From NCBI RefSeq assembly GCF_003815875.1, contig NZ_CP033924.1, positions 2,108,001 to 2,172,000 of the forward strand: a stretch of DNA of 64,000 bases, written 5' to 3'. A program made the position numbers and the translations under genes. Positions 30,894 through 63,357 of this stretch are shown here, piece after piece. Position 1 is the stretch's first letter. Each line of letters opens with the position of its first letter. Source of the stretch: Chryseobacterium lactis (GTDB lineage Bacteria; Bacteroidota; Bacteroidia; Flavobacteriales; Weeksellaceae). The notes under the pieces were generated by a model. It was not told the DNA's origin. It worked only from the letters and a program-made list of their open reading frames with translations, and ran no database searches.

Positions 30894-30937
30894 TGCCTGG
30901 ATTTGAGTATTATTCAAGACAATTATAAAAAATAAAG

Positions 30938-30970
30938 AGACTGCCGGTACATGTAAATTATCGGCAGTCT
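30938..30970 (-). terminator. Terminator of the inositol operon
   Basis: AGACTGCCG (30938-30946) pairs with CGGCAGTCT (30962-30970). On the minus strand it is followed by CTTTATTTTTTATAA; on the plus strand there is no T run, so it chiefly serves the operon. Confidence 0.75.
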
Positions 30971-31022
30971 GCATTCTAAAAATATATTAAATGGTATGAA
31001 AACTCGTCTGAAAAAAAGGCTA

Positions 31023-32627: not shown

Positions 32628-32669
32628 AAGATTATGTGTTTTTTTAGTTGAAATTTTAGAACATTATTT

Positions 32670-33647
32670 TTATAGAAAAATTATTTTTTTTTGTTCTAAT
32701 GACTTTTCACAGGCATCAGCCAATATTGAAGCTTTAAGAGCGTCTTCCCCTGTGGAAGGAAACTCTTTTTTCTCCTGTATAGAAGTGATAAATGCTTTTA
32801 TTTCTTCTATATATGAATCCTTATATCTTTCCAGAAAAAAAGGTTCAAGTACACTGCTTTCTAAAGAATTTTCTGAATAAAAAGTGAGATGGTTGATCTT
32901 TTTATTTTCTACAGAGATCATTCCTTTGTCTCCCAATATTTCCAGGCGTTGATCATAGCCATAGGAAGCCTTTCTACTGTTATCAATATTACAGATGATT
33001 CCATTTTTAAACTTTATGGTAATCAGTGTTGTATCTGTATCATCTGTATAATTTTTAGAACCTACGGCAATTACCTGCTCAGCTTCACTTTCACTGATAA
33101 AGCGAGCCATATCAAGATCATGGATGCTCATATCATTGTAAATTCCTCCTGAGGCCCTGGTGTATTCTGCCGTTGGAGGGAAGGGATCTCTACTGGTAAT
33201 TTTAATAATAGTTGGTTTTCCTATTTTTTTTAAACTTGCTTTAACGGCAGCAAAGTCAGGATCAAAACGTCGATTAAAACCTACCATGAGCCGATGGTTG
33301 AGGTCGGGATAAATATCGATTAAAGATTGAATATTATTGCTGTCTTTGTCCAGAGGTTTTTCACAGAAAATATATTTGTTACTGTCCAATGCTTCCTTTA
33401 CCTGTGCAAGATGATAGCTTGTAGGAGAGCATATCCATACTGCATCAATATCTTTTTGTTGAAAGATGTCTTGGTAATTGGTGTAAAAATGAGGGATTTG
33501 GTATTCTGCAGCTGTCCATTTTGCAAGTTCCGGAGAAATGTCAGATACAGCAGTAATCTTGATATTTTTAAATGTTTTTAATGCTGCCAGATGTATTTGC
33601 CCAATTCGCCCAAGTCCTATAACTGCTATTTTTAATATAGTATCCAC
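32670..33647 (-). CDS. iolG: Inositol 2-dehydrogenase (Gfo/Idh/MocA family)
   Basis: Oxidises myo-inositol to scyllo-inosose with NAD+, the first step of catabolism. 325 residues from GTG 33647 (VDTILKIAVIGLGRIG). The frame extends to an ATG at 33731, but that adds 28 residues inside iolA before the Rossmann GLGRIG, so GTG is preferred. Motifs: IFCEKPLD near residue 92, GFNRRFDPDFA near 120 and SGGIYNDMSIHDLDMARF near 160 (catalytic Asp/His), then NSRKASYGYDQRLEILG. This matches the canonical IolG type better than the second dehydrogenase of the operon does. Eighth of nine genes. Confidence 0.88.
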   Translation of the reverse strand: MDTILKIAVIGLGRIGQIHLAALKTFKNIKITAVSDISPELAKWTAAEYQIPHFYTNYQDIFQQKDIDAVWICSPTSYHLAQVKEALDSNKYIFCEKPLDKDSNNIQSLIDIYPDLNHRLMVGFNRRFDPDFAAVKASLKKIGKPTIIKITSRDPFPPTAEYTRASGGIYNDMSIHDLDMARFISESEAEQVIAVGSKNYTDDTDTTLITIKFKNGIICNIDNSRKASYGYDQRLEILGDKGMISVENKKINHLTFYSENSLESSVLEPFFLERYKDSYIEEIKAFITSIQEKKEFPSTGEDALKASILADACEKSLEQKKIIFL

Positions 33648-33693
33648 TGTGTGTATCGTTTTATTGGTGTCTTTTTTATGAAGCGGGAAAAAT

Positions 33694-35172
33694 CTAAAAT
33701 GTTCTTGACCAGGTTTTAGGCCAGCGTTCAATCACTACTTTTGTTTGGGTATAAAATTCAATTCCATGGCGTCCCTGTGCGTGAAGATCGCCAAAGAAAG
33801 ATTCTTTCCATCCCGAAAAAGGAAATTGAGCTACCGGAGCGGCCACACCTACATTAATTCCTATATTACCTGCCATTGCTTCACTTCGGAATTTCCTGGC
33901 TGAAAGACCGTCTTGAGTGAAAATACAAGCCATATTGCCATAACGTCCACTGTTAATAAACCGAATGGAATCATCCATAGATTTGAAATTGAGCAGACTC
34001 ATTACCGGTCCAAAGATCTCCGTAGAAATAATCTCTTTATCTAATGGAACATTTTCTAAAATAGTAGGGTAGAGGAAGTTGCCTTTATCAAACCCGGAAA
34101 CCCCTTTCTGGGTTCCATCTACCAGAAGATTAGCGCCTTCATTAACTCCTTTTTTAATAAGTCCTTCAATTCTTGTTTTACTTTCCTGAGAAATTACGGG
34201 CCCCATTTCTATTCCATCTTCCAATCCATAGCCTACTTTTCTGGATTTTGCTGCTTCAATCAAAGCTTCTTTGATATTTTTGTTGTCTCCGATTGTAATG
34301 ATAAGAGAGGCGGCAAGACAACGTTGCCCGGCGCAGCCAAATACTGAATCTGTAATGATTTTAGTCGTCATATCAATATCAGCATCAGGCATAATAACGA
34401 CGGGGTTTTTTGCTCCACCCTGCGCTTGTACGCGTTTTCCATATTTTGCACCCTCAGAGTAGATGTATTTGGCTATTGGAGTTGAGCCTACGAAACTAAT
34501 GGCTTTCACATCCGGATGTTGCAGTAAAGCATCCACAGATTCTTTTCCACCGTGTACCAGACTTAGAAGACCTTTAGGCAAATCTATATGTTGGTGAATA
34601 AGATCAAATACATATTGCATGGTGGTAGGTACTTTTTCTGAAGATTTTAAAATAAAAGCATTCCCCGTAGCAATAGCATAGGGAAGAAACCAGAAAGGGA
34701 TCATTCCCGGAAAATTAAATGGCGTAATACAAGCACATACCCCTAATGGCTGCCTGATCATGAACTCATCTATTCCCGGAGCTATGTTTTCTGAAAACTC
34801 AGATTGATTAAGAACATAGGTGGCACATGCAACCTCAATATTTTCAATTGCACGTTGTATTTCACCTAAAGATTCCGTAAAGGTTTTTCCGCACTCATTG
34901 GTAATAAGCTTTGCAATCTCCTCCTGATGGTTTTCTAATAATGTTTTCATTTTAAAAAGCGGCTGTACTCTCTTCATTGCAGGAACATCTTTCCATTCAA
35001 GATAAGCTTGATGAGCATATTGTACAGCTTTATTAACATCCTTTATGGTATCCGGACCATTAGGAACTTGTGCGATAATTTCCTGAGTGGCAGGATTGTG
35101 TACTGAAGTATATTGTGTGGAAATACTGCTTTCCCATGCTCCGTTGATGTAATTTTCTATTTTTTTCATCAT
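33694..35172 (-). CDS. iolA: CoA-acylating methylmalonate-semialdehyde dehydrogenase
   Basis: Converts malonic semialdehyde to acetyl-CoA and CO2, the last step of inositol degradation; the family (MmsA) also handles methylmalonate semialdehyde in valine catabolism. 492 residues. Aldehyde dehydrogenase motifs: ITPFNFPGMIPFWFLPYAIATGNAFILKS near 150, ISFVGSTPIAKYIY near 225 and FGCAGQRCLA near 285 (catalytic Cys), with no charge-relay Glu at the usual hydrolytic site (QAQGGAKNP), as expected for CoA-acylating forms. Nine bases after iolD. Confidence 0.93.
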   Translation of the reverse strand: MMKKIENYINGAWESSISTQYTSVHNPATQEIIAQVPNGPDTIKDVNKAVQYAHQAYLEWKDVPAMKRVQPLFKMKTLLENHQEEIAKLITNECGKTFTESLGEIQRAIENIEVACATYVLNQSEFSENIAPGIDEFMIRQPLGVCACITPFNFPGMIPFWFLPYAIATGNAFILKSSEKVPTTMQYVFDLIHQHIDLPKGLLSLVHGGKESVDALLQHPDVKAISFVGSTPIAKYIYSEGAKYGKRVQAQGGAKNPVVIMPDADIDMTTKIITDSVFGCAGQRCLAASLIITIGDNKNIKEALIEAAKSRKVGYGLEDGIEMGPVISQESKTRIEGLIKKGVNEGANLLVDGTQKGVSGFDKGNFLYPTILENVPLDKEIISTEIFGPVMSLLNFKSMDDSIRFINSGRYGNMACIFTQDGLSARKFRSEAMAGNIGINVGVAAPVAQFPFSGWKESFFGDLHAQGRHGIEFYTQTKVVIERWPKTWSRTF

Positions 35173-35181
35173 TTGTATTAA

Positions 35182-37062
35182 TTAGTATTGGTTAGGCTTT
35201 ATATACTGCTGTTGCTGTTTTTTATTTAATTCATACTGTTTTCTGGCTTCAATGACTTCCGGAAAAACTGATATTTCAGGGATGGGCACTTCCCACCACG
35301 AGTAAGCGTAGCCCTGAAGTTTTCTATCCCGGATGGTCTCTACATAAATAACAGTTGTCTCCGTATTGTTTTTGGCTTTCACAAGACTGTCTTTAAACTC
35401 ATCCATATTTTGTGGTCGGAAAACTGTTGCTCCCAGGCTTTCTGCATTTTTTGCCAGATCTGTCATTAGTGGCGGCCCGTCAAGTTGTCCTGTCTCTTTA
35501 TTTCTATATTTAAAATAAGTTCCGAATCCTTCTTCACCCACAGATTGAGAAAGACCTCCAATAGAAGCATAGCCACTATTGTTGATGAGTATGATTGTGA
35601 TTTTGTATCCTTCCTGCAAAGTGGTGATCAGGTCAGAAGGCATCATGAGATAAGTAGCATCACCACACATAACATATATTTCCCGATCAGGAGAGGCCAT
35701 TTTAGCGCCAAGTCCACCTGGAATTTCATATCCCATACAAGAATTTCCGTATTCAAGATGAAAGCTTTTTGAACTTTTAGTCCTCCATAGTTTATGAAGA
35801 TCTCCCGGCAGAGAACCGGCTGCACATAAAACAACATCCTGATCATCTATAAAATCATTGAGAGCTCCAATATATTCTGCCTGAACTGGGGCATCAGGAT
35901 TTTCACATGAATATGCCTTTGCTACAATCTTGTCCCATTCACTGTGGTATGCATGAATTTTTTCCACATATTTTTTTTCTGTATGGTAATTACCTAATGC
36001 TTTCCTTACTACTTTCAGGATTTCTCTTGCATCCCCCTGTAAAGGAACAGCGCTATGCTTAAAAACATCGATTTCTGTAATGTTGATATTAATAAAAGTA
36101 ACCTCCGGATTTTTCCAGGCTGATTTTGATGCTGACATAAAATCTCCGTAACGGGTGCCTATTCCAATGACTAGATCTGCTTCTTCTGCAATTTTATTGG
36201 CTCCCTTAGTCCCTGTACCTCCTATTGCTCCAAGATTAAATGGATGTTCATAATGAAGTGATCCTTTTCCTGCATACGTTTCAACAACCGGAATTCCAAA
36301 TTGCTCTGAAAAAGATTTTAATTCTTCTTCTGCTTCAGAATAGATGACTCCTCCTCCAGCGACAATCATTGGCTTTTTTGATTTTCTGATAAGGCTGATG
36401 GCATGCTTTAATAATTGAAAATCCGGTAGAGGTCTTGGGATATACCAGATTCTTTTCTGAAAAAGGTGCATAGGAAAATCATAAGCTTCCGTTTGTACAT
36501 CATGTGGAAAAGCTAGGGTAACAGCACCGGTCTCTGCCGGCGAGGTAAGAACTCTCATCGCTTCCAGTAAAGACGAAGTAAGCTGCTCCGGACGTTGAAT
36601 GCGATCCCAGTATTTTGAAATCGGTTTAAAGCAATCGTTCACTGAAATATCCTGAGTATGACCCGATTCTAATTGTTGCAGTAATGGAGAAGCTGAGCGG
36701 GTTGCAAAAAAGTCCCCCGGAAGCAATAAGACGGGAAGTCGGTTAATAGTGGCTCCTGCAGCTGCAGTAATCATATTGAGAGCTCCAGGGCCAATGGAAG
36801 TTGTGCAGGCAAATGTTTGTAACCTGTTCTTCATCTTTGCATAGGCTGCAGCCGTATGAACCATCGCCTGTTCATGGCGGGTCTGATAATATGTGAAATC
36901 GGGATTCTGCTTCAAAGCTTCTCCAAATCCAGCCACATTTCCATGTCCAAAAATTCCGAAACATCCTGCAAAAAATGGCTGCTCTTTTCCATCTCTTTTT
37001 GTATACTGTTTTTTTAAAAACTCAATCGTAGCCTGTGCTACAGTTAATCTTTTTGTGTCCAT
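35182..37062 (-). CDS. iolD: 3D-(3,5/4)-trihydroxycyclohexane-1,2-dione hydrolase
   Basis: Thiamine-diphosphate enzyme that opens the inositol-derived ring to 5-deoxy-glucuronate. 626 residues, family about 640. The N-terminal domain has FAGCFGIFGHGNVAGFGEAL and YYQTRHEQAMVHTAAAYAK (the Glu that activates ThDP), the central domain has MIVAGGGVIYSEAEEEL, and the C-terminal ThDP-binding motif runs from YVMCGDATYLMMPSDL to LINNSGYASIG. IolD is told from acetolactate synthase by its N-terminal FGIFGHGN and by its neighbours iolC and iolA. Confidence 0.95.
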   Translation of the reverse strand: MDTKRLTVAQATIEFLKKQYTKRDGKEQPFFAGCFGIFGHGNVAGFGEALKQNPDFTYYQTRHEQAMVHTAAAYAKMKNRLQTFACTTSIGPGALNMITAAAGATINRLPVLLLPGDFFATRSASPLLQQLESGHTQDISVNDCFKPISKYWDRIQRPEQLTSSLLEAMRVLTSPAETGAVTLAFPHDVQTEAYDFPMHLFQKRIWYIPRPLPDFQLLKHAISLIRKSKKPMIVAGGGVIYSEAEEELKSFSEQFGIPVVETYAGKGSLHYEHPFNLGAIGGTGTKGANKIAEEADLVIGIGTRYGDFMSASKSAWKNPEVTFININITEIDVFKHSAVPLQGDAREILKVVRKALGNYHTEKKYVEKIHAYHSEWDKIVAKAYSCENPDAPVQAEYIGALNDFIDDQDVVLCAAGSLPGDLHKLWRTKSSKSFHLEYGNSCMGYEIPGGLGAKMASPDREIYVMCGDATYLMMPSDLITTLQEGYKITIILINNSGYASIGGLSQSVGEEGFGTYFKYRNKETGQLDGPPLMTDLAKNAESLGATVFRPQNMDEFKDSLVKAKNNTETTVIYVETIRDRKLQGYAYSWWEVPIPEISVFPEVIEARKQYELNKKQQQQYIKPNQY

Positions 37063-37080
37063 AATTCAACATTGAAGTAG

Positions 37081-38085
37081 TTAAAAGCCTCCTTTATCTT
37101 TAATAAATTGGATAATTTCTTCATAGGTAGGAGCGTAGTTACTACATCCCTGCCTGGTCACTATCCAGGCGCCACAAGCGTTAGCAAGCCGGCAAGATTG
37201 ATAAGTATCCCAATTTTGAAGATATCCATAAATAAATCCGGAAGCAAATGCATCTCCTGCGCCCAATACATTTACGACTTCTACAGGAAACCCGGGTATG
37301 TTTTCTATTCTGCCATCGGGGTAATAGGCAGACACTCCTTTGGCTCCCGTTTTTACCAACAAAAGTTTGACTCCGGAAGATAATACCTGTTTAATCACGG
37401 CATTGATATCTCCTTCTATAGTAGGTGAAGAAATGGCATTGTCTTTAATTTTTACCTGATCAGACTCTGTGAGTCCCATTGCCAGAAGTTCTTCTTCTGT
37501 ACCCATAATAATATCACAAAGAGGCAGGTATTGGCGAAGGGTAACTCCGAATGCACGTACATCATGCCATAAATTAGCTCTAAAATCTATGTCTAAAAAA
37601 ATGGTTGCTCCCTGAGCTCTGGCTTTTTCGGTAGCATAAATAGCTGCACTCCGGGTAGGCTCAACAGATAGTGCAGTACCAGTCATCAAAAAGGACCTGT
37701 AATGGGTGAAATCTATCGTATTTACCATGTCAATACTAAGGTAATTGTCAGGAGCTTTATCCCGATAAAATACCAGCGGGAACTTGTCAGGGGGAACAAT
37801 GCCGCAGACTACGGCAGTACTTGTAGTGCCTTCTATTGTATTGACATGCGAAACATCTACTTTTTCCTGTTGTAAAGCATTGATAATGAAACTACCTATA
37901 GGATCATTTCCAACGCCTGTTACGATACTGGTTTTAAGTCCCAATCTCTGTGCTCCTACAGATATATTGACTGGTGAGCCGCCAATTGCGGTGCTGAGTA
38001 GTTTAATATCATTAAACTCCGCCCCAATATTTTTAGAATATAAATCGATACTGGCCCGTCCAAATGTTAATAGATCAAATTTCAT
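37081..38085 (-). CDS. iolC: 5-dehydro-2-deoxygluconokinase
   Basis: PfkB-family kinase that phosphorylates 2-deoxy-5-keto-gluconate. 334 residues, as in B. subtilis IolC. N-terminal substrate motif IGGSPVNISVGAQRLGLKTSIVTGVGNDPIG (residues 33-64), IFLDIDFRANLW near 160, TEEELLAMG near 198 and the C-terminal PfkB signature NVLGAGDAFASGFIYGYLQ with catalytic Asp near 275. Assigned by family match and position between iolB and iolD. Confidence 0.93.
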   Translation of the reverse strand: MKFDLLTFGRASIDLYSKNIGAEFNDIKLLSTAIGGSPVNISVGAQRLGLKTSIVTGVGNDPIGSFIINALQQEKVDVSHVNTIEGTTSTAVVCGIVPPDKFPLVFYRDKAPDNYLSIDMVNTIDFTHYRSFLMTGTALSVEPTRSAAIYATEKARAQGATIFLDIDFRANLWHDVRAFGVTLRQYLPLCDIIMGTEEELLAMGLTESDQVKIKDNAISSPTIEGDINAVIKQVLSSGVKLLLVKTGAKGVSAYYPDGRIENIPGFPVEVVNVLGAGDAFASGFIYGYLQNWDTYQSCRLANACGAWIVTRQGCSNYAPTYEEIIQFIKDKGGF

Positions 38086-38105
38086 TTTTACTTTTTATTA
38101 ATTGT

Positions 38106-38972
38106 TTACTGATTATTCATGGCAGGAGTGACTAAAGGAAGGCGGGGATCTTTTTGTTTCCATGAATCAAAAATCCATTCATAGTCGCTGTCCGTAGTAT
38201 TGGCTAAAGACTGATCTGAGCCTGCCAGAAAATTTAAATAATAACAATGGTAGCCATGGGCAGCTGCTACCGGATGATAACCTTTTGGAACCAATACGGC
38301 ATCATTATGTCTTGCCCGTAAGATCTCATCTAACGGATTTTTATCGTCTTTGGTATAGATCTGTTGAATCGCATATCCTTCCGGTTCCTGAAATTTATAA
38401 AAGTAAATTTCTTCCAGTTGGGCTTCCTGTAATTGGCCTCTGTCGTTTACAATTCTTTCGTCATGTTTATGAGCGGGAAATGAACTCCAGTTTCCGGATG
38501 GGGTATATACTTCTCTGCATACGATTCGGGAGCAGGCAAATCCGGGAGGGATGAGGTCATTAAACTGCCTTGTAGCATTGTCTCCACCAAAAATTACTGA
38601 AGGAGTTTTTTCGGGAGTGATCAGATGAGGTTCAAAATCGTGATCAGCTTTACACCAACAGTAGGCTATATCCAAAGTATCAGAGGTTGATGTAAGGGTA
38701 AATTGTGTTTTTCTGGGAAGATAAAGGGTATGGGCTACCCCTTGAAATACATTTTTTCTTCCATTGCCGGTTTCCCAGTTTCCCCGGTTGCTTTCTACTT
38801 TGTAATTGCCGGATAATAGGACAATAACCATTTCATGTTCTCCCGTATCATAGGTCCAGGTTTCAAGTGGACCCATAAGGCGGGTTTCAAAATTTAACCA
38901 TGTCCAACCTGCACTTTCAGCAGAGATACTTTGGTAAATTTTTTGTTTTTGAGGTTGTATTAAAAGACTCAT
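38106..38972 (-). CDS. iolB: 5-deoxy-glucuronate isomerase
   Basis: Isomerises 5-deoxy-D-glucuronate to 2-deoxy-5-keto-D-gluconate. 288 residues, two cupin repeats. WTYDTGEHEMVIVLLSGNYKVE in the first half; GNWSSFPAHKHDER in the second holds the metal-binding His residues, followed by EEIYFYKFQEPEGYAIQQIY and VLVPKGYHPVAAAHGYHCYYLNFLAG. Typical IolB length and motifs. Between iolC (20-base gap) and the iolX-type gene (24-base gap). Confidence 0.94.
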   Translation of the reverse strand: MSLLIQPQKQKIYQSISAESAGWTWLNFETRLMGPLETWTYDTGEHEMVIVLLSGNYKVESNRGNWETGNGRKNVFQGVAHTLYLPRKTQFTLTSTSDTLDIAYCWCKADHDFEPHLITPEKTPSVIFGGDNATRQFNDLIPPGFACSRIVCREVYTPSGNWSSFPAHKHDERIVNDRGQLQEAQLEEIYFYKFQEPEGYAIQQIYTKDDKNPLDEILRARHNDAVLVPKGYHPVAAAHGYHCYYLNFLAGSDQSLANTTDSDYEWIFDSWKQKDPRLPLVTPAMNNQ

Positions 38973-38996
38973 TTGTGTTGCTGTTAAGGGTTTTAT

Positions 38997-40028
38997 CTAA
39001 GAGATCAGATCAGCAATAGTAATTGGTTTTTTCTCTTTGAAAGATTTTGTTAGAGCTGTAGCTACCAGAGTTGCATTGGTTGCATTATTCATGGTAAGTT
39101 CAGGCTGCCTTTTTTCTAAAACATGATCTACAAAAGATTGGATTTGTGTTAAAAATGCAGCTTGAAATCTATCAAAAAATGTTTCCATCCCTTCTCTTCG
39201 GATACCATATTTATCTGAAATCTGAAGCATGTTTTTTACTGGAGGATCACCTATTTTCAAATTCCCTTCTGTGGCAAAAATTTCCGTACAGGTATTGTGA
39301 CCGAAAGAGGAAATTCTGGATGCCAATACTATGGCCATCGTTCCGTTTTGCAGTTCACACATAGCCGCTGTATTGTCTGCATCTCCGGCCAAACCGAACT
39401 CCGGGAATCTATAAGCCCCTCCCAGGGCCCATACTTTTTCAATCCTTGAGCCTAGATACCAATGAGCAAGGTCAATGTCATGCACGTTATAATCATGAAA
39501 TATACCGCCGCCAGTGGTGCAAAATTCAATTTGAAACGGAGCAAAAGTATCTTTATCTACGGTTTGAGAACGCAATAAATAAGGGGTTCCTACTAGTCCC
39601 TGGTTGATCTTAGTTTTAGCATCAGCATAACTGGCATCAAATCTTCTTACGAATCCTAACATAGTAATCCGGTCAGCATGTTTTGCAACTATTTTTTCAA
39701 CACGGATACAATCTTCTATATTAAGGGCAAGAGGTTTTTCACAAAAAACATGGTAACCGGCTTCAACAGCTTTAATGATCTGATCAGCATGTTGATCTGT
39801 TGAAGTAACGATCACTACAGCTTCCATATCTTTTTGCTGATCGAGCATTTGTTCATATGAAGAATACAGATTGGGAACATTATAGGTATCTTTTACATAC
39901 TCCAGTTCTTCTTTTTTGATGCTGCATGCTGCAATCATGTGGGCATTGGGAACCAGATAAGTCAGATTTTTTACATATTCTTTGCCAAGTCTTCCCAGTC
40001 CGACAATTCCGATATTCAGTTTTTTCAT
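38997..40028 (-). CDS. iolX: Gfo/Idh/MocA dehydrogenase, likely scyllo-inositol 2-dehydrogenase
   Basis: 343 residues. Rossmann IGIVGLGRLGKEYVKNL at the N terminus, VIVTSTDQHADQIIKAVEAGYHVFCEKPL near 75-105, MLGFVRRFDASYADAKTKI near 122 and GGGIFHDYNVHDIDLAHWYLG near 174 (catalytic region). The IVTSTDQHAD and RRFDASYADAK segments and the C-terminal ASRISSFGHNTCTEIFATEG look more like IolX (scyllo-inositol dehydrogenase) than IolG. Having both lets the cell use myo- and scyllo-inositol through the same inosose. Third gene of the operon. The exact stereochemistry is inferred. Confidence 0.78.
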   Translation of the reverse strand: MKKLNIGIVGLGRLGKEYVKNLTYLVPNAHMIAACSIKKEELEYVKDTYNVPNLYSSYEQMLDQQKDMEAVVIVTSTDQHADQIIKAVEAGYHVFCEKPLALNIEDCIRVEKIVAKHADRITMLGFVRRFDASYADAKTKINQGLVGTPYLLRSQTVDKDTFAPFQIEFCTTGGGIFHDYNVHDIDLAHWYLGSRIEKVWALGGAYRFPEFGLAGDADNTAAMCELQNGTMAIVLASRISSFGHNTCTEIFATEGNLKIGDPPVKNMLQISDKYGIRREGMETFFDRFQAAFLTQIQSFVDHVLEKRQPELTMNNATNATLVATALTKSFKEKKPITIADLIS

Positions 40029-40045
40029 AGATGTGTTTTTCTTTT

Positions 40046-40927
40046 TTAGAATTTTAAAATGTCTTTCATGAATTGATATCCTTTTTGGGCATATTCAAAA
40101 GGATTGGCTTTAGCTGGGTCCTGTTCGGCTTCCACCACAATCCAGCCTTTGTATTGGTTCTCATGAATAATTTTAGCTAGAGCCTGCATATCAAGATTCC
40201 CATCACCGGGCACGGTATATATTCCCAGTTTTACGGCCTGCAAAAAACTTAAGTTCTCCTTATATACCTGCTCTTTGATATTTTTTCTTACATCTTTAAA
40301 ATGAATATGTGCCGTACGGCTTATGAATTTCTGCAATGCTTCTACCGGATCTTCATTGGCAAAATCGAAGTGCCCACAATCATAATTAAGTTGTACATAT
40401 TTTTCTTTTGTTTCGTTCAATAGACGCTCGGTTTCATCGATAGTTTGTACCATTGTACCCATATGATGATGGTATGAGAGATGCATTCCGAAATCGTTCA
40501 GGGCGATTTTTCCAAGTTCGTTCAATCCGTTGGTGAGCTTCTTCCAGTCTTCATCTGAAGCTTTTTTTCGTTGCGTGATAGCCGTGTTGTATTCTCCATG
40601 AATGGTATTTCCACACTCTGCACCGCCTACTATTTTTGAATTGAAATGTTTTAAAAAATTCAGTTGCTTGATAAAACCCTGTTTTACCTGTTCATAAGAT
40701 TGAGTTGTCAGTTGGTAACTGAACCATTGGTTACAAATAGTAAGTCCTCTTATGTCGAGATGTTTTTTTAAAACAGAGGGATCTTCAGGATATTTGTTTC
40801 CTACTTCACAGCCTGTATAGCCTGCCAGAGCCATTTCGCTGATACACTGTTCGAAAGTAATGTCTTTCCCCAGTTCAGGCATGTCATCATTAGTCCAGCC
40901 GATGGGAGCAATTCCTAATTGTATCAT
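40046..40927 (-). CDS. iolE: Myo-inosose-2 dehydratase
   Basis: Dehydrates scyllo-inosose to the trihydroxycyclohexane-dione. 293 residues, AP-endonuclease-2-type TIM barrel. Start IQLGIAPIGWTNDDMPELGKDITFEQCISEMALAGYTGCEVG is the IolE hallmark; YHHHMGTMVQT near 150, LNYDCGHFDFANEDPVEAL near 178 and HIHFKDVR near 205 hold metal ligands; VPGDGNLDMQAL and VVEAEQDPAKANPFEYA end the barrel. Its start overlaps the upstream aldolase stop by 4 bases. Confidence 0.95.
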   Translation of the reverse strand: MIQLGIAPIGWTNDDMPELGKDITFEQCISEMALAGYTGCEVGNKYPEDPSVLKKHLDIRGLTICNQWFSYQLTTQSYEQVKQGFIKQLNFLKHFNSKIVGGAECGNTIHGEYNTAITQRKKASDEDWKKLTNGLNELGKIALNDFGMHLSYHHHMGTMVQTIDETERLLNETKEKYVQLNYDCGHFDFANEDPVEALQKFISRTAHIHFKDVRKNIKEQVYKENLSFLQAVKLGIYTVPGDGNLDMQALAKIIHENQYKGWIVVEAEQDPAKANPFEYAQKGYQFMKDILKF

Positions 40928-41874
40928 AAGTGTTTTTTATAAAGTTGTGTTTTATTGCTGTTGCCGAGTATCTCAAATTTTTTTTCGAACAGTTTTTTTA
41001 ATTCTTCTATATATTGAATGCCTGGTTTTAATGGATCCAATTGATCAGGATGGTTCTGGAAATATTCTCTGAATACTCTTATCCATAATATTCTGAGATC
41101 GGTAGCGATATTCAGTTTGCATATCCCATAGGGGATAGCTTTTCTTATTTCTTCCTCAGTTATTCCTTTCGCATCTTCTTTGATCTTTCCTCCGGTAGCA
41201 TTAATTCGTTTTACCTCGTCGATATCTATGGAAGAAGCACCATGCAAAACAATCGGGAATCCGGGCACTCTTCTCTGAATATCTTTTAAAAGATCAAAAC
41301 GAAGACCTTTGCCTCCAGAGAATTTATAGGCACCATGGCTTGTACCTACCGCAACGGCGAGACTGTCACATCCTGCTTCTTTTACAAAATATTCCACGTC
41401 AGCAGGATTGGTGTATAGGGCATTCTCTTCTTCTATATTCAAATGATCTTCTACACCGCTCAGCACTCCAAGTTCTGCTTCTACAGAAATATTTTTAAGA
41501 TGAGCCCTGGTAGAGACCAGCTTTGTCCGCTCAATATTTTTTTCCAAAGGATCATGAGAGGCATCAATCATTACAGAGGTGTATTCACCCGACTCAATAG
41601 CATGATAGATATGAGATTCATCACCATGATCCAGATGTAGAGCAAAAAGAACATCGGGATATATTTTTGCAGCTGCCTTTACATAATTAAGAAGCATTAC
41701 GGGGTGCATATATTCTCTTGCAGCAGGAGTTGTTTGAATAATAAATGGCGCATTCATTTTATGTGCCGTACTAAATAAAGTATACACCTGCTCGGGCATG
41801 GAAACGTTAATTGCAGGGATACAAAACTTCCCGTAAGCTTCTTTTAAAAGGGTAAGTGAATTAATTTTCATCAT
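40924..41874 (-). CDS. iolJ: Class II aldolase, IolJ-like (6-phospho-5-dehydro-2-deoxy-gluconate aldolase)
   Basis: Splits 2-deoxy-5-keto-gluconate-6-phosphate into dihydroxyacetone phosphate and malonic semialdehyde. 316 residues, class II aldolase fold: FALHLDHGDESHIYHAIESGEYTSVMIDASHDPLEKNI (zinc-binding HLDHGD, residues 78-115), VEAELGVLSGVEDHL near 133, AVAVGTSHGAYKF near 175, IVLHGASSID near 210 and CKLNIATDLR near 255. These motifs are shared with fructose-bisphosphate and tagatose aldolases, so the IolJ role rests on its place as first gene of the operon. Start ATG 41874, or the next codon ATG. Confidence 0.85.
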   Translation of the reverse strand: MMKINSLTLLKEAYGKFCIPAINVSMPEQVYTLFSTAHKMNAPFIIQTTPAAREYMHPVMLLNYVKAAAKIYPDVLFALHLDHGDESHIYHAIESGEYTSVMIDASHDPLEKNIERTKLVSTRAHLKNISVEAELGVLSGVEDHLNIEEENALYTNPADVEYFVKEAGCDSLAVAVGTSHGAYKFSGGKGLRFDLLKDIQRRVPGFPIVLHGASSIDIDEVKRINATGGKIKEDAKGITEEEIRKAIPYGICKLNIATDLRILWIRVFREYFQNHPDQLDPLKPGIQYIEELKKLFEKKFEILGNSNKTQLYKKHL

Positions 41875-41946
41875 TTGCTAATTAAAGTCTGTTGTTAATT
41901 ATATTATATGTAATAAATTAACCATTTTATTTAATATTTTTACATT

Positions 41947-41958
41947 GTGTTCGAACAC
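41947..41958. promoter_or_regulatory. Candidate operator of the LacI-type regulator
   Basis: GTGTTCGAACAC, a perfect 12-base palindrome, alone in the AT-rich divergent gap between the inositol operon and the regulator. LacI-family operators are typically palindromes with a central CG, as here. On the minus strand a near-match to the -7 consensus (TATTTTG, one base short, 41985-41991) lies about 30 bases upstream. Confidence 0.6.
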
Positions 41959-42076
41959 GAATTTATATATTAATTTGTAATTAGCAAAATATTTATTAAA
42001 AATTTATTTTAATTATTGTTTATTTGTAGGATTAAAGGGAATTTGAGAAGGGTGAGAAAAACGAGAAAAATGTTTT

Positions 42077-42084
42077 TATATTTG
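42077..42084 (+). promoter_or_regulatory. -7 promoter element of the LacI-type regulator
   Basis: TATATTTG fits TAnnTTTG. It leaves a leader of about 15-18 bases before the TTG start at 42107 and supports that start. Confidence 0.6.
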
Positions 42085-42106
42085 TTATTATACTAAATTA
42101 TATATT

Positions 42107-43156
42107 TTGACAATCAAGGAAATCGCCCGATTAGCTAACGTTTCCCCCGGAACAGTTGATCGTATACTGCATAATAGAGGAGGAGTATCAGAAAGTACTG
42201 AAAAAAGAGTAACGGAAATCATTGAACAGGCGGGAGGGTTCAAACCTAATGTTATTGCGCGAAATCTTGCTCTGAATAAAATATATCAGGTGGCCGTTTT
42301 GATGCCCTTGTTTAATGCTGCCAGTCCATTTTGGGAATATCCTAAAAGAGGAGTTCTTAAAGCTATTGAGGAGGTTTCCAGTTATGGAATGAAAGTTTCC
42401 GTGTCCTATTTTGATGAATTTAATGTAGATTCTTACAGCAAAGAATTAGACAAAATTCTGAAGAATAAAAATCTGGATGGGATTATCATTGCTTCACATT
42501 TTGTTAAAGAAACGCAGGAAAGAAGTGATATACTGAATGCTCTTAATATTCCTTACCTATTTTTAAACGTTCCTTTGAAAGGATTTAATAATGTCTCTTT
42601 TGTAGGACAGGATTCATTCGGAAGCGGGCGTCTAGCAGCCCAACTTTTTCATATTGCAAGAAATACGGAGAAGCCAAGAGTTTTAATCATGGAGGTCCTG
42701 GAAGATTTTGAAAATTATTATGGACTGGATCAACGTGTAAAGGGGTTTATGAGCTTTTTCGCAGATTACGAGTCTCATGTGAAAGTTGAAAAAATAAGAG
42801 TTCCGAACAAGAATACTAAGCAATTTTATAAATTACTTGGAGATAGTCTGGATATCTATAAAGATGCCGGCGGGATATTCTTTCCATCCAATGCGGTAAC
42901 TAAAGCAGGACGATATTTTGAAACACACGGGATAAAATTAGATATGATCGTCGGGTATGATGTGACTGAAGAAAATAGAAAGTTTCTGAATAAAGATATC
43001 ATCACTTTTCTAATTGGTCAGGAACCCTTTCAACAAGGTTATAAAAGTGTTAAACTTATGTTCGAGCATCTTGTACACGGTGAAAACCTGAACAAGGTTT
43101 ATATGTCTCCCATTCATATTATAACCAAAGAAAACCTGGAATATTACATGCATTGA
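42107..43156 (+). CDS. LacI family transcriptional regulator of the inositol operon
   Basis: 349 residues from TTG 42107: (M)TIKEIARLANVSPGTVDRILHNRGGVSEST, a LacI-type helix-turn-helix and hinge (residues 1-60). The remaining part is a periplasmic-binding-protein fold: YQVAVLMPLFNAASPFWEYPKRGVLKAIEEV, DGIIIASHFVKETQER, NVSFVGQDSFGSGRLAAQL, GGIFFPSNAVTKAG and QEPFQQGYKSVKLMFEHL. No ATG precedes the HTH and the nearest upstream in-frame stop is at 42053, so TTG is the likely start. It is divergent from the operon, the usual arrangement for a repressor that responds to inositol or a breakdown product. The ligand is inferred. Confidence 0.88.
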   Translation: MTIKEIARLANVSPGTVDRILHNRGGVSESTEKRVTEIIEQAGGFKPNVIARNLALNKIYQVAVLMPLFNAASPFWEYPKRGVLKAIEEVSSYGMKVSVSYFDEFNVDSYSKELDKILKNKNLDGIIIASHFVKETQERSDILNALNIPYLFLNVPLKGFNNVSFVGQDSFGSGRLAAQLFHIARNTEKPRVLIMEVLEDFENYYGLDQRVKGFMSFFADYESHVKVEKIRVPNKNTKQFYKLLGDSLDIYKDAGGIFFPSNAVTKAGRYFETHGIKLDMIVGYDVTEENRKFLNKDIITFLIGQEPFQQGYKSVKLMFEHLVHGENLNKVYMSPIHIITKENLEYYMH

Positions 43157-43178
43157 TCGATGAAATATTCCAGGTTTT
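43131..43178. terminator. Terminator overlapping the end of the LacI-type gene
   Basis: AAAACCTGGAATATT (43131-43145) and AATATTCCAGGTTTT (43164-43178) pair over 15 bases. The left arm lies in the last codons of the gene. It can serve both this gene and the convergent nitroreductase gene. Confidence 0.75.
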
Positions 43179-43192
43179 ATGTAGAAAGATAA

Positions 43193-43795
43193 TTATGCTT
43201 CCACAATTACTTTTTCAGTTTTCAGCCTCGTCTTTGGATTGAATTTCGGCTGATTGGCGTCTGTTTCATCTCTTTTACCAATAGCAACTGCAAAAAGAGT
43301 CTCGTATTTTTCATTGTTCAGAATTTGATCATATTTATCAGGTTCAATACCTTCCATGGGAGTAGAATCTATTTCCATATCAGCGCAGGCAGAAAGAAAT
43401 ACTCCTAATGATAAATAAACCTGGTGTTTTAGCCAAGACTTGATTCCTGTTTCTCCTTTTGGCTTTACAAAGTTGTTGTAATAATTTACAGATCCTTCAG
43501 GTAGAACCCCTTCAATTTGTTTTTCAAAATCTTCCGGATTTTTAAGTGCTTGGAAAATAATTAAATGGCTGCTTTCCAATACTTTTTCTTTGTTCCAGTA
43601 AGAGGCCTCCGCCAATTGATCTTTTACTTTAGAATCATTATTTACGAAAATAAAATTCCATGGCTGGCTATTGATCGAAGAAGGACTCAATTGCAGAATT
43701 TCTTTAAGCTGCTGGATTTTCTCTTCACTTACTGTTTCTTGTGGATTATACTTTTTTACAGTATATCTCGATTTCATTTTGTTTAAAAAATTCAT
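43193..43795 (-). CDS. Nitroreductase family protein, NfsB-like
   Basis: 200-residue FMN enzyme that reduces nitroaromatics or quinones with NAD(P)H. MKSRYTVKKYNPQETVSEEKIQQLKEILQLSPSSINSQPWNFIFV (residues 7-51) holds the FMN-phosphate RYTVKKY motif and the SSINSQPW loop. KHQVYLSLGVFLSACADMEIDSTPMEGIEPDKYDQIL near 123-160 is the NfsB/NfsA signature, and AVAIGKRDETD near 172 follows. Divergent from an HxlR regulator with shared operator-like repeats, a common pairing in which HxlR controls the reductase in response to quinones or aldehydes. Confidence 0.92.
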   Translation of the reverse strand: MNFLNKMKSRYTVKKYNPQETVSEEKIQQLKEILQLSPSSINSQPWNFIFVNNDSKVKDQLAEASYWNKEKVLESSHLIIFQALKNPEDFEKQIEGVLPEGSVNYYNNFVKPKGETGIKSWLKHQVYLSLGVFLSACADMEIDSTPMEGIEPDKYDQILNNEKYETLFAVAIGKRDETDANQPKFNPKTRLKTEKVIVEA

Positions 43796-53994: not shown

Positions 53995-54053
53995 CATTCT
54001 GATTGGAATGATTAATGCTTCTTACTTTTAGTTTAATTTAAAAAAAAGAAAAC

Positions 54054-59000: not shown

Positions 59001-59779
59001 GGGAATTTACTTTTAAAGGGATAAAGATGAGATTTTGCAGAATTAAAACCTGCATGTGTTCCGCTGCTTATGATAGGGTGGTGGAGTGCAACAATAATTC
59101 TTTTGCCCTGGTTTTTAATAATAAGATCTTTGAATTCTGTATAAAAATCTTCACGGGTTTTGATATTGCAGTTCTTGTTGATACCGGGATGGTTGTCCCA
59201 GTTGGTAATGACCCATTCCGTATCAATAACTATAAGTTTAATATCTTTCGAAATATTGATGTCATCAATAGGACAGCCATTTTTAGGGAGGAATGCTTTT
59301 TTATCGTCAAAATATTTTTTAACGAATTTTTCCTGAGCATTTAATCCGTCCACACCATTGTACCAATCATGATTTCCAGGAATAACCAATGTTTTTCCCT
59401 TGAAATTTTTGGTAATGGTCAGCTGGTCTTCCAACTTTTGTTTTGCTAAAGCATAGCCTTCATCCTTTTCTTTAGGCATTCCGTTGGGATAAATATTGTC
59501 TCCAAGGAAGATGAGCATAGAATTGTTGTTGGCAGAATCAAGTTTGCCTTTCAGTAGATTCAGAGTCTTTTGAGCCTGTGTTTCATCTGCATTTCCGGCG
59601 TCCCCGATCAGGAACAATTTAAAATCATTATCAGATTTTACGTCGGAATCTTTTACTTCGAATAAGTTTTTGCCCTTTTGTACGTTATATGTTGCGCAGG
59701 AGTACAGTACTCCGGCAGACATTACGGTTCTCAGAACAATAGAAGTATTTTTTAGATGAGTTTTAAAGGATAAATTCAT
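56063..59779 (-). CDS. Metallophosphoesterase fused to outer-membrane beta barrel
   Basis: 1238 residues. N terminus: signal-like segment with VLYSC (Cys28), a likely lipoprotein site. Residues 50-370 are a calcineurin-type phosphoesterase: FLIGDAGNAD (50s), LGDNIYPNG near 90, IPGNHDWYNG near 133, ALHHPIIS near 231 and SGHDHNLQYH near 309. A middle region (about 440-890) has RGVKKSAIRFLNNMAFQK and GDWDRHSDQWKWAE. The last 350 residues are a BamA/ShlB-like (surface antigen D15) barrel ending GGRISAGIGMKF, with the C-terminal Phe. Probably surface- or periplasm-facing; substrate unknown. Divergent from the HD-PycTM gene, 26 bases apart. Confidence 0.85.
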   Translation of the reverse strand: MNLSFKTHLKNTSIVLRTVMSAGVLYSCATYNVQKGKNLFEVKDSDVKSDNDFKLFLIGDAGNADETQAQKTLNLLKGKLDSANNNSMLIFLGDNIYPNGMPKEKDEGYALAKQKLEDQLTITKNFKGKTLVIPGNHDWYNGVDGLNAQEKFVKKYFDDKKAFLPKNGCPIDDINISKDIKLIVIDTEWVITNWDNHPGINKNCNIKTREDFYTEFKDLIIKNQGKRIIVALHHPIISSGTHAGFNSAKSHLYPFKSKFPVPVIGSIINTLRSSSGASPADLNNQHYADLANRLKSIVQDKENIIFVSGHDHNLQYHEDGNIRQVISGAGSKIDPATIVEPTDFSYGGSGFAILNIRNDKSTDIEYFSTKDAELKKLTHISVTSKPDVFVNNFPNSFPSTFSSTIYPVQLTQKRKFYRWLWGDHYRKYYGIPIEAPTANLSELNGGFIPFREGGGNQSNSLRLKSSDGQEFVMRGVKKSAIRFLNNMAFQKSTLGEELADTFPEKFLLDFYTTNHPFTPFSIGNMSEKLNIFHSDPKLYYIPRQKALGKYNENYGDEMYMIEERFSSDPKTLASLDNAKDIVSSDDVLKNLNKNTKYSVDKESYIRARIFDMLIGDWDRHSDQWKWAEYELGDKIVYKPIPKDRDQAFSKYDGAAFKVIMNVPAIRHMKTFTEDISSVKWLAMEPYPMDLVFLKGATQEDWEAQAKYIQEHLTDADIDEAFRNLPKEVQDDTIAEIQRKLKIRKTKLQNYASQYYDVLQKKVPLAGTVNPDKFVITKNGHSVLVQQYKLGKNKDKNELVFEKTYHDSKTKELWIYGLEDDDIYDVVGKGNPKMTIRLIGGYNHDVYNVEDGRKVKIYDFKSQKNTYNAGSATKNISDDYDINSYNYKHPKYNSVAGYPNADYNPDDGVIIGVLANYTVNNFIRDPYTQKHSLKANFYTATAGFSLVYKGIFKKAIYGWDFNLDAAYTTPRFSQNFFGLSNDSPYDKEDTEREYNRARISKFNFAPSISKKSWMNLSHQIQLTFEDNKVQRKDDRFINISPDVRPEVFNSQQFVGANYTFGYKNADNVAFPTLGLEFMLNADWKSTLSDFNKNFLTLKGKLAIDHRIDKKGVFVFANSSNVMWINNNNFEFYQAAAIGGNNGMRAFRNERFSGRSYFINNSEIRWDFGRIRNNIAPANLGILIGYDIGRVWNDAENSRKWHESVGAGLWLSIVEMMSARLNYFYGSDGGRISAGIGMKF

Positions 59780-59805
59780 AAATTTACATTAACAAAAATT
59801 CAGGG

Positions 59806-60981
59806 ATGAGCATTCTACACAAAGCTAAAAATTATGTTGAAATCTTATTCAAAGATAAGTTATCTTCGGTATATTTTTATCATAATTTTATACATACTGC
59901 CTATACAGTCAACAAGGCTGAGGAAATCATGAAAAACACACCTGTTTCAGAAGAGGATCAGGAAAAAGTACTTGTGGCACTATGGTTTCATGATACAGGA
60001 TATATTGAATGTGCGAAAAATCATGAAGAAAGAGGAGTGGAGATCATGAAAGATTTTCTTCATCAGGAAAATTATCCACAGACTTATATTGATGATGTTG
60101 AAAAGCTGATTCTTGCTACAAAAATCACTCATGAACCCGACGGATTGCTGGAGAAAATAGTGAAAGATGCAGATTTCAGCCATTTTGCAGGACATGATTA
60201 TGGTGATATTTCTGATGCCTTAAGAAAAGAGTGGGAGCTTACCAACGTAAGATGTTTTTCCAATGAAGAATGGAATGCCGGTAATCTGGATATGCTTAAA
60301 AACAAGCACACCTTTTACACCGATTATGCGAAAGAAAACTGGGAGCCTTTAAAGAAGAAAAATATCAAAAAAATTGAAAAGAAGCTGGAAAAGGAAGAGG
60401 TGAAGAAGGAAGATAAGAAAGACAATTCAGAAGGAAAAAAAGATAAAGAAAAATCTGACAGAAGTGTTGATACTTTGTTCAGGGTTACTCTGAATAATCA
60501 CACCAGGTTAAGTGATATTGCAGATAGTAAAGCGAATATACTTCTTTCGGTTAATGCAATTATTATTTCAGTTTGTCTTTCAGTGCTGGTTCCGAAGCTG
60601 GATGCTCCGAAGAATGCCCATCTCATTTTGCCAAGTTTTATATTGCTTACCTCAAGCGTACTTACCATTATATTTGCGATTCTTTCCACCAAACCGAATG
60701 TCACGAAAACGACTTTTACATCTGAGGATATTACCAACAGGAAAGTTAATTTGCTGTTCTTCGGAAACTTTCAGCAGATGCTTTTTGATGACTATCACAA
60801 TGCGATGAGGGATCTGATTAAAGACAGAGATTATATTTATGATTCTATGGTGAAAGATTTATATTACTTAGGCAAGGTTCTCGACAGGAAGTATAAGCTT
60901 TTATCAATAACCTATAAGATTTTCATGGCGGGAATTATTATTTCTGTCTTATCCTTTGGAGTGGCTTTTCTTAGTCTTTAA
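59806..60981 (+). CDS. HD domain protein fused to a PycTM-type membrane effector domain
   Basis: 391 residues. Residues 1-180 are an HD phosphohydrolase: YFYHNFIHTAYTV (H26, H30), ALWFHDTGYIE (HD at 62-63) and KDADFSHFAGHDYGDI (last ligand near 121-123). A Lys/Glu-rich linker (184-220) follows. Residues 221-391 match the PycTM/DUF5706 domain of Pycsar anti-phage effectors: LFRVTLNNHTRLSDIADSKANILLSVNAIIIS, then membrane segments at about 245-262, 273-293 and 372-390. Pycsar effectors respond to cyclic CMP or UMP made by a neighbouring cyclase; no cyclase gene is in this window. Whether this is a defence protein or a housekeeping relative is open. Confidence 0.88.
   Translation: MSILHKAKNYVEILFKDKLSSVYFYHNFIHTAYTVNKAEEIMKNTPVSEEDQEKVLVALWFHDTGYIECAKNHEERGVEIMKDFLHQENYPQTYIDDVEKLILATKITHEPDGLLEKIVKDADFSHFAGHDYGDISDALRKEWELTNVRCFSNEEWNAGNLDMLKNKHTFYTDYAKENWEPLKKKNIKKIEKKLEKEEVKKEDKKDNSEGKKDKEKSDRSVDTLFRVTLNNHTRLSDIADSKANILLSVNAIIISVCLSVLVPKLDAPKNAHLILPSFILLTSSVLTIIFAILSTKPNVTKTTFTSEDITNRKVNLLFFGNFQQMLFDDYHNAMRDLIKDRDYIYDSMVKDLYYLGKVLDRKYKLLSITYKIFMAGIIISVLSFGVAFLSL
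59820..59852 (-). promoter_or_regulatory. Promoter of the phosphoesterase-barrel gene, inside the HD-PycTM gene
   Basis: Minus strand TTG (59850-59852), 22 bases, TAGCTTTG (59820-59827). Both elements match and lie in the first codons of the divergent gene. Confidence 0.6.
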
Positions 60982-61047: not shown

Positions 61048-63357
61048 TTAATCATTTGAGCTTAAAGAAACCCTCAAAGCAAGCAGTCCGGTAATTCCCT
61101 GAAGATCTTCTACTTTAAGGAACTCAATGTCATGCTGAAGGACACCTTTTTTCTGAAGTTTGGAAATATATTCCAGATATTCTTTCTGATTTTCCATGCC
61201 GAAGTAGACAATAGTTATTTTTCCGGGACTGGTTATCCTTTCCGCAGAATCTTTTACATGAGCTTTATCCAGACGTTTCTTGATAATTTCATAATAAGAA
61301 TTGTAGGCACCGTCCACATCGAAGCGCTTTTCATCCATTCTGAAACGAATGTCTATCTTTTCGTTATAGACAAAGATTAATGAGGCAATATCCAACTGAA
61401 TAGGAAGGTCTTTTTTAAAAGATTGAAAATCCAGTTCCATTTTACAGATGGTTTTCAGTTGCCAGTATCTTAGTTTATGAACAACTTTTGACGTATAGTG
61501 AAGATCAGGAGCAATTGTAGAGCCAATGTAGAGATTATGCTCTACGCCGTCAGATTTAAATCTTTCATAATAATGCGGAAAGATCTGCTGAGCCTTGATT
61601 TGGCTTTCATCCAGCATATCCGCCAGTTTTCTATTGACAAGCGTAATAGAATCATCCAGATTTTTTCTGTGATTGTAGAATAAATCTGTCTGAGCCAATA
61701 TCTGAAGGAAATAATCCTGAATTTTTGCTTTTATTTCTTTGGAAGTTCTTACCTCCAGCTTGCCCTGTAAAAACGGATGAATTTCCTCACGCAGCAGCCT
61801 TTGGAAACGTTGTTCCGTATCCGCTTTGATTTCATGATTCAATTCACTTTCAAAAATATCAAGAGCTAATGTAAATTTTTCCGAATCTGAATTGGTAAGT
61901 GTAAAAATATCTTTCAGCCATTCAATTTGCTGATTGAGATCTTCTAGCATCAGATTAAAACGCTTTTCCGAAGACGAACGGATATCAGAAACTCCAAATA
62001 ATGGAGTCAGATTTTTAAAGGAAATCTGTTTCAGGGAATACATTTTCTTTCCCATCGAAGCGGTAAAATACTTCTCCGCTTCATTCCTGAATTTCCAGAC
62101 CACACTGTCATGAATCGTAGTATATTCACGTTGAATAATGGCTTCTATCTGATAATTTTTTTCAAAATAAAACCTGCTCAAAGAGAAAAGAACCATATCG
62201 GTGAAAAACTCCATTTTTTTGAGTTTTAAACCATTAAAACTGCCAACAACAGTAGAGGTAAATTCCATGATCGCAAGAAGTTCTCCGTCTTTAATGATGG
62301 GAATCACCATGAAACTATTGATGTTGTTATTTTTTAAAATACTGAAGGAAGGAAGTTACTTCACGTTTTCATCCAAATTATTAACATTGGAAATAACAAT
62401 TGGTTTTGAATTGTTACTTAAATTGTTAAACGTGTTTTTCCGGGTTTCTTCATCAAAAGTATTGATCCAGAAGTCAAGAATATGATTGGTTAAAAGACTT
62501 TCATAGATCGGAAGCTTATCCAGCTTTTGTTCTTTTTTGTTGAACGTCATGATTCCGAAATTAAGCTCGGAAACGTCAAAATAAGATTTGAAAATTTCGG
62601 TCAGATTTTCATTCGGATTCAGATTTTCAGGATCGATCTCAATCATGCTTGATTTAAGATCAGATAAAGCAACTTCAGACGTACAATCAACCAATGATAT
62701 GATGGTGAATCCTTTCAGTATCCAGGATTGGGACGGAAAATATTTTTTCCACAAGTTAAAATCATCCAGATTTTCCAAAAGCATATCCAGAATATCCTCT
62801 GATGGGATTTTAGCACTTTCTGTAGGGATAATTTCAGTAAAGTCTGAGTTTACCGTAATTTTATAATGTTTCATGATTCCCTGTTTATTAGGAATATCAT
62901 AATAAAACGGAATCATTCCTTTAATGTCTTTTTTAAAATAGGCCTGAAGAATCAGGCAGCAACAAAATACATAAAATTCGTTGTCAGAAATATTTCTGAG
63001 TTCTATTTCAAAATCTTTCCCTGCATCCTTAAGAATTCCTTTAAATCTTTCGGTATAATTAAATGTGATATTGGAAAGAGGAATACTTGCTGCCTTGATT
63101 TCATTATGAGTAAGGCCGGTAGGGAAAAGATCAGCCAGCAGCAATCTGATGAGGTCTTCATTTTTTTCCAGAAGACGGATGTCCTGAAATCCATCTTTAA
63201 GCTCTTTGACATTCTTTGTCCTGTCAATAAGGGATTCGGCATAGTTAACCCTATACTCCAGGCGGTCATTATAGCGGATATGTTCCAACACATCCAAATA
63301 CTTTTTGAATGAAATATAAACCTGAAAGGGAGAGTCTTTGTTGTAAAGATTAGCCAA
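61048..63357 (-). pseudogene. GAF domain-containing protein interrupted by in-frame TAA
   Basis: Two frames, 62356-63357 (333 residues) and 61048-62310 (420 residues), are in the same phase and separated only by a TAA stop (62356-62358) and 15 sense codons. Read through, they give one protein of about 769 residues. The join lies in a GAF domain: KPIVISNVNNLDENVK, stop, LPSFSILKNNNINSF, then MVIPIIKDGELLAIMEFTS, which is the typical GAF core. The C-terminal part has no known enzyme domain. The start is TTG 63357 (ANLYNKDSPFQVYISFKK) after an in-frame stop. A single base change (for example GAA to TAA) would explain it; a sequencing error is possible. Confidence 0.82.

Follow-up and report, generated by a model that had tools for sequence, protein, structure and literature searches.

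The window analysed here, 64,000 nt of contig NZ_CP033924.1 of Chryseobacterium lactis, contains near its end two minus-strand open frames that follow each other in the same phase with a single stop codon between them. The question raised by this locus is whether the two frames are separate genes, the halves of one gene that has been lost, the product of a wrong base in the assembly, or one gene whose stop codon is tolerated by the cell.

One reading frame with an internal TAA

The minus strand from position 63357 to 61048 forms a single frame of 769 residues in which the only stop is one TAA at residue position 334. The first-pass annotation had described this region as two frames (62356-63357 and 61048-62310) in one phase, separated only by a TAA and 15 sense codons, which without the stop would encode a protein of about 769 residues; each of these points was confirmed, and the 15 codons look coding (Table 1). 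No ATG, GTG or TTG lies in frame among them. Of the 100 distinct orthologues in the alignment, 80 have K just before the stop, and the seven residues following it are L, P, S, F, S, I and L in 91, 94, 98, 100, 61, 100 and 100 of the 100, respectively. Since the flanks of the stop are thus conserved as coding sequence, the adjacency of the two frames is not due to chance. The start codon was counted in 125 orthologue loci, leaving out six further loci with no usable full frame at this place. A TTG start is unusual for a gene this widespread, and the 12 loci compared also resemble one another in the bases upstream of the TTG.

Table 1. Features of the split gene, its neighbours and the second copy of the gene set (positions in the window unless another frame of reference is given)
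Feature	Position	Strand	Remarks
TTG start codon of the split gene	63355..63357	-	TTG in 119, ATG in 4 and GTG in 1 of 125 orthologue loci; cut by the contig end in 1
Part before the stop, 333 residues, with the N-terminal domain and roughly the first two thirds of GAF	62359..63357	-	
GAF domain, residues 225-401	62155..62685	-	interrupted by the stop
In-frame TAA	62356..62358	-	sense codon in this column in 100/100 distinct aligned orthologues
15 sense codons between the stop and the next ATG	62311..62355	-	mostly conserved
Downstream ATG frame, 420 residues: last GAF strands, linker helix, cyclase-like domain	61048..62310	-	
Class III nucleotidyl-cyclase fold with helical insertion, whole, 3' of the stop	61051..62028	-	predicted fold
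HD-PycTM protein, 391 aa	59806..60981	+	PF18967 PycTM 3.2e-33; PF01966 HD 5.5e-8; PADLOC PycTM 1e-16
Metallophosphoesterase with Omp85-like C-terminal part, 1238 aa	56063..59779	-	PF00149 3.3e-9; PF03865 2.5e-4
Second trio	5665-12933 of L172 (G000:C1:4544000-4560000)		

A collection of species genomes was scanned with the downstream half, and 80 loci, titled Chryseobacterium or Weeksellaceae, were kept of the 115 confirmed. The results showed one open frame across the break in all 80 loci, with lengths from 749 to 798 codons, the shortest being ended by its contig. The stop therefore interrupts a gene that is a single frame elsewhere, as had been proposed; the relatives do not carry two separate genes, and an ancestral two-gene layout is rejected on these loci. 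Within the genus, the upstream part and the downstream part were each found in 173 of 173 Chryseobacterium genomes, the window genome included. Frame state was listed for 160 of them; of these, 155 are open, 4 are frameshifted downstream, and the window genome, whose frame is cut to 340 codons, alone carries the present stop. The four exceptions (G147, G158, G163 and G179; loci L125-L128) have frames of 563 to 635 codons which break further downstream and differently from the TAA; their frameshifts represent either sequencing error or repeated loss.

The column in which the stop stands holds 11 different residues among the 100 distinct aligned orthologues, and most of the later columns are near-fixed. 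Because a variable sense column is here embedded in conserved surroundings, we regard the stop as a lesion of the window genome at a variable position in a conserved stretch. The best 120 of 1057 full-length relatives reach an identity of 91% at most and include no intact copy from the same species. Intact orthologues elsewhere and a lesion in this genome alone would fit a pseudogene formed by nonsense mutation, provided that the base is right.

Domains of the split protein and the downstream ATG

The first reading had labelled the interrupted domain as GAF and had it continuing across the break, which is right. By sequence the domain is weak (PF01590, E 0.039 in the downstream half; PF13185, 0.0094, and PF01590, 0.011, in an intact orthologue; all under the curated cut-offs), but in the predicted structure the GAF fold is clear and residues 225-401 match the GAF-type sensor kinase 6oaq. 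In this model the stop falls in a loop of the domain, with a short helix at residues 330-333 before it and strands at 348-368 after it. To describe the locus as a GAF-domain gene was, however, incomplete, as the largest domain, a cyclase-like one 3' of the GAF domain, had been overlooked.

A cyclase-homology fold is present in the predicted structure. When the whole modelled protein was searched with Foldseek, the best match was 6fht (E 4.6e-6), and for the model of the downstream part all 50 matches listed in VIA are by title adenylyl, guanylyl or uridylate cyclases, which we take to be of class III. The predicted order of sensor, helix and cyclase fold is the same as in the GAF or PAS-GAF class III cyclases (phytochrome-linked 6fht; Cya2, 2w01). 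The window family differs from them in giving no PF00211 match, in a long helical insertion after the first strand, and in that inspection of its sequence by eye does not reveal the canonical positions of the second metal and the Arg. PF00211 did not match in the four relatives scanned nor in the window genome (G000), whereas it matched in 5 of 14 control genomes, and a profile comparison (hhalign) with 25 Bacteroidota PF00211 domains gave no match (probability 0.1%; in the PF00211 profile, A3, 5 of 30 loci were omitted as having no segment by the motif rule). A PDB sequence search returned weak ZapA matches only, and none of the Pfam, NCBIfam and PADLOC models tried recognised the protein as a cyclase. 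With regard to the two metal-binding aspartates of class III cyclases, the alignment shows D458 (79/79) in the first-strand motif and D603 (79/79) in the next hairpin. With regard to the transition-state Asn and Arg, 76 of the 78 rows aligned at position 686 have N, and four residues on stands E690 (78/78), not Arg, with K693, K694 and R695 thereafter. Cyclic-nucleotide production would be a candidate activity.

Whether the 3' half could be translated by itself depends on the ATG at 62310. The 24 bases 5' of this codon score 3.52 in a matrix built from 50 conserved ATG starts of the window genome; 82% of those 50 starts score at or below this value (their mean is 1.75 with sd 2.80, each start being left out in turn), and among 348 internal in-frame ATGs 1% score as high or higher. 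All 101 aligned sequences, the one from the window among them, carry Met here. The mean score of the start context over the 101 sequences is 0.55, as against 0.38 expected from synonymous codons, and this closeness indicates that the context stems from the amino acids and not from a selected start site. A conserved start codon for the 3' half was therefore found only as a conserved Met: selection for a start site is not seen in the codons preceding it, and a conserved internal start at this ATG is rejected. An A at -3 is reported as a positive signal in Flavobacterium (PMC6847099); here it is missing and a T stands instead. Local RNA folding at the ATG is unremarkable (z -0.13). Re-initiation at this ATG is possible.

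These data bear on a functional split, in which the upstream part and a re-initiated cyclase-like protein of 420 residues would both be made and the cyclase-like domain would be uncoupled from its sensor. The start-like context in the window agrees with such a split, as do the predicted location of the whole cyclase-like fold 3' of the stop and a downstream part without signs of decay. The context across the aligned sequences and the T at -3 speak against it, and so do the unpaired GAF strands which the downstream piece would carry and the fact that the window downstream product is not among the best 120 of 634 database matches. We consider it improbable that both halves are working products.

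A three-gene module and its second copy

The split gene is convergent (tail to tail) with the gene of an HD-PycTM protein, which in turn is divergent (head to head) from a metallophosphoesterase gene; the frames of both neighbours are open. The phosphoesterase also matches Omp85_fam (5.4e-17), yet under the cut-off of that model. Only 26 bases lie between the start codons of the two neighbours (window 59779-59806), which is too short for two ordinary promoters, and the start-to-start distance measured by tblastn is 26-27 in 76 of 80 loci.

The arrangement of the trio seen in the window occurs in 80 of 86 loci (L001-L080 and L166-L171); 4 loci end before the third gene, and the HD gene is absent from the locus in 2, namely L077, on a contig of 3.1 kb, and L169, from G195. 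The gap between the GAF-cyclase and HD-PycTM genes ranges from 18 to 4713 bp over the 84 loci holding both. In a sample of 60 genomes of the order, the GAF-cyclase gene was found in 13 and had HD-PycTM beside it in 12 of these. HD-PycTM at E under 1e-30, a cut-off set after the results had been seen, was present in 13 of 13 genomes with the GAF-cyclase gene and in 4 of 47 without it (Fisher 4.6e-10, kinship ignored); G218, whose GAF-cyclase match is weak (A1, E 1.8e-4), was counted as without the gene. The weak A1 matches obtained in genomes beyond the order (E 1e-3 to 1e-7, over at most about 165 columns) were not taken as family members. Of three genomes from other orders, G304 has the HD, phosphoesterase and GAF-cyclase genes all in the same direction, and G333 has the three within about 13 kb. 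In the third, G283, as well as in G195, the HD-phosphoesterase pair is on a different contig from the GAF-cyclase gene. Among the papers listed in searches of the open-licence literature, none treats this gene trio. As a working scheme, the cyclase-like domain would be under the control of the N-terminal and GAF parts, which would take up a signal; HD-PycTM would be a membrane reader with a hydrolase domain, and the phosphoesterase would act at the outer membrane.

The window genome has a second trio at 4.55 Mb, arranged in tandem, in which the GAF-cyclase (774 aa), HD-PycTM (390 aa) and phosphoesterase (1235 aa) frames are all open. Next to it are two short stretches, presumably a polyphosphate-kinase-like fragment and an efflux-pump-like frame. 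Copies of the GAF-cyclase and phosphoesterase genes, 75-81% identical to this second set and spaced so as to leave room for an HD gene, occur in G108, G117, G164 and G173; one stop was counted inside the match in the GAF-cyclase rows of G108 and G117, and the first copies of all four genomes are open. Of the 7 genomes that have a second GAF-cyclase match, 1 has a broken first copy, as against 0 of the 162 that lack such a match (Fisher 0.041, with the 4 frameshifted genomes left out and 13 unlisted ones taken as open), and the second copy is of the trio type in only five of the seven. This is a weak link between the second copy and the broken first one.

The partner gene invites comparison with Pycsar, which consists of a pyrimidine cyclase, PycC, and a PycTM effector (PMC11224242). 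The effector is a membrane protein familiar from phage defence. As in Pycsar, the partner bears a PycTM effector domain, and the cyclase-like and effector genes are adjacent (in the loci and order-sample genomes counted above; not in G195 and G283). Unlike in Pycsar, the effector domain shares its protein with an HD domain, the set has a third gene, metallophosphoesterase/Omp85-like, and the family is present in every genus genome searched and not sporadically like a defence gene; such a core distribution speaks for a housekeeping role. PycC was not found by PADLOC, up to E 1, in P0002, in the window downstream part (only Cas12f, 0.49) or in the second copy. Since the cyclase side fails both the sequence and the defence-model tests, we did not assign the trio to Pycsar; it looks like a resident relative of Pycsar signalling. 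Another cyclase-like family is DUF2652, formerly a domain of unknown function, whose members average 250 residues, are mostly single-domain and occur in Bacteroidetes and others (PMC4886424). The window family has no DUF2652 match.

Origin of the stop and its meaning

Compared with its 15 closest orthologues, the gene has a dN/dS of 0.020-0.036 as a whole. The values are similar on the two sides of the stop, at 0.024-0.044 before it and 0.016-0.034 after it, the last being computable in 12 of the 15 pairs, with downstream dS saturated in 3. Because dS is 1.4-2.5 and thus saturated, these ratios reflect the long history before the stop and do not date it. Among the 101 sequences the window has no private change at an otherwise invariant column. 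It departs from columns at least 97% uniform at 3 upstream and 1 downstream positions, 4 departures as against a median of 2, and ranks 78th of 101 counted from the least deviant. When neutral decay was simulated with an indel share of 10%, the frame after the stop was still open with P 0.096 at 20 events and 0.007 at 40; with substitutions only, P was 0.430 and 0.195, respectively. This low survival of an open downstream frame suggests that the loss is probably young. Unless it is an error or the downstream part is still in use, the stop is probably young.

The strong constraint on both sides of the TAA would also be expected if the codon were read through or recoded and the full-length protein made, and a survey reports in-frame stops with dN/dS below 1 to be widespread in bacterial genes (PMC7918605). 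The same survey states that such stops tend to be short-lived, and it focused on in-frame stops shared by two or more species; the window stop resembles them in lying within a gene constrained on both sides and differs in occurring in one genome only. As the column is never a stop in the aligned orthologues, a conserved recoding site is absent, conserved stop-codon recoding is rejected, and we regard production of the full-length protein through the TAA as very improbable.

A one-base sequence or assembly error is agreeable with the stop being a singleton and with the frameshifts elsewhere along the same gene in the four genus genomes named above; error is likely in some of those copies, since all four are on contigs of at least 4.6 Mb and one of the genomes is only 75% complete. 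The stop is, however, of the substitution type and keeps the frame, and the exact 333-aa upstream protein (P0122) is the head of a cluster in the protein database that comprises 9 members from 3 contigs, although these could be duplicates from a single assembly or other fragments. Nor does the surrounding sequence look poor. The window genome is one contig, 100% complete with 0.17% contamination. When about 90 kb was compared with the syntenic stretches of G143 (67 frames, 60 matched, 59 at 70% identity or more) and G010 (62 frames, 55 matched, 54 at 70% or more), the split gene had the only true internal stop, and widespread decay or poor assembly of the region was not seen. Two flags for a second stop were rejected: at 54027 the frame taken from G143 is too long, and the flag at 17052 falls in a low-complexity end. 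The flags at 66412-69433 are presumably tandem paralogues. The same comparison places about 12.3 kb of the window (30890-43196) between genes that are adjacent in G143 and G010, likely a strain-specific island. On balance, an error in the base is unlikely, though less so than a functional split.

The first-pass annotation had offered three options, namely recent loss, error, and a stop that is read through or leaves the halves working separately. The first two stand as possible, conserved read-through is contradicted, and separate halves could arise via re-initiation only. We favour, with moderate confidence, the reading that the gene encodes a sensor-cyclase-like member of a conserved three-gene module and that its nonsense codon is probably recent and a trait of the strain or species, not of the family. 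Translation would then end at residue 333 and yield the N-terminal domain with an unfinished GAF domain, by which the cyclase-like domain would lose its signal input. Ribosomes may also re-initiate at the ATG 15 codons further along and make small amounts of a second product of 420 residues, and because that ATG has a start-like context the loss of the gene may be incomplete. For the window strain, in which the first sensor-cyclase copy is cut within GAF, the likeliest outcome would be that the regulated protein is lost, perhaps with a little free cyclase-like domain being made; the other module, at 4.55 Mb, may partly make up for this loss.

The stop is an ordinary and probably recent strain-level event, or an error. 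A nonsense codon in a single genome is ordinary; the gene that it affects is not, and the family and its partners merit follow-up. Since the window genome has no PF00211 cyclase, the split-gene protein and its paralogue are candidates for the source of a cyclic nucleotide. We tentatively propose that the module is a chromosomal housekeeping relative of Pycsar in Bacteroidota, in which a GAF-regulated cyclase, unrecognised by sequence, would be combined with an HD-PycTM protein that both degrades and reads the messenger and with an outer-membrane metallophosphoesterase; the window strain would then be a natural uncoupling mutant with the cyclase cut from its sensor. If a cyclic nucleotide is made or bound by these proteins, the trio would represent a cyclic-nucleotide pathway resident in these bacteria and not confined to defence, from which Pycsar-type effectors might derive.
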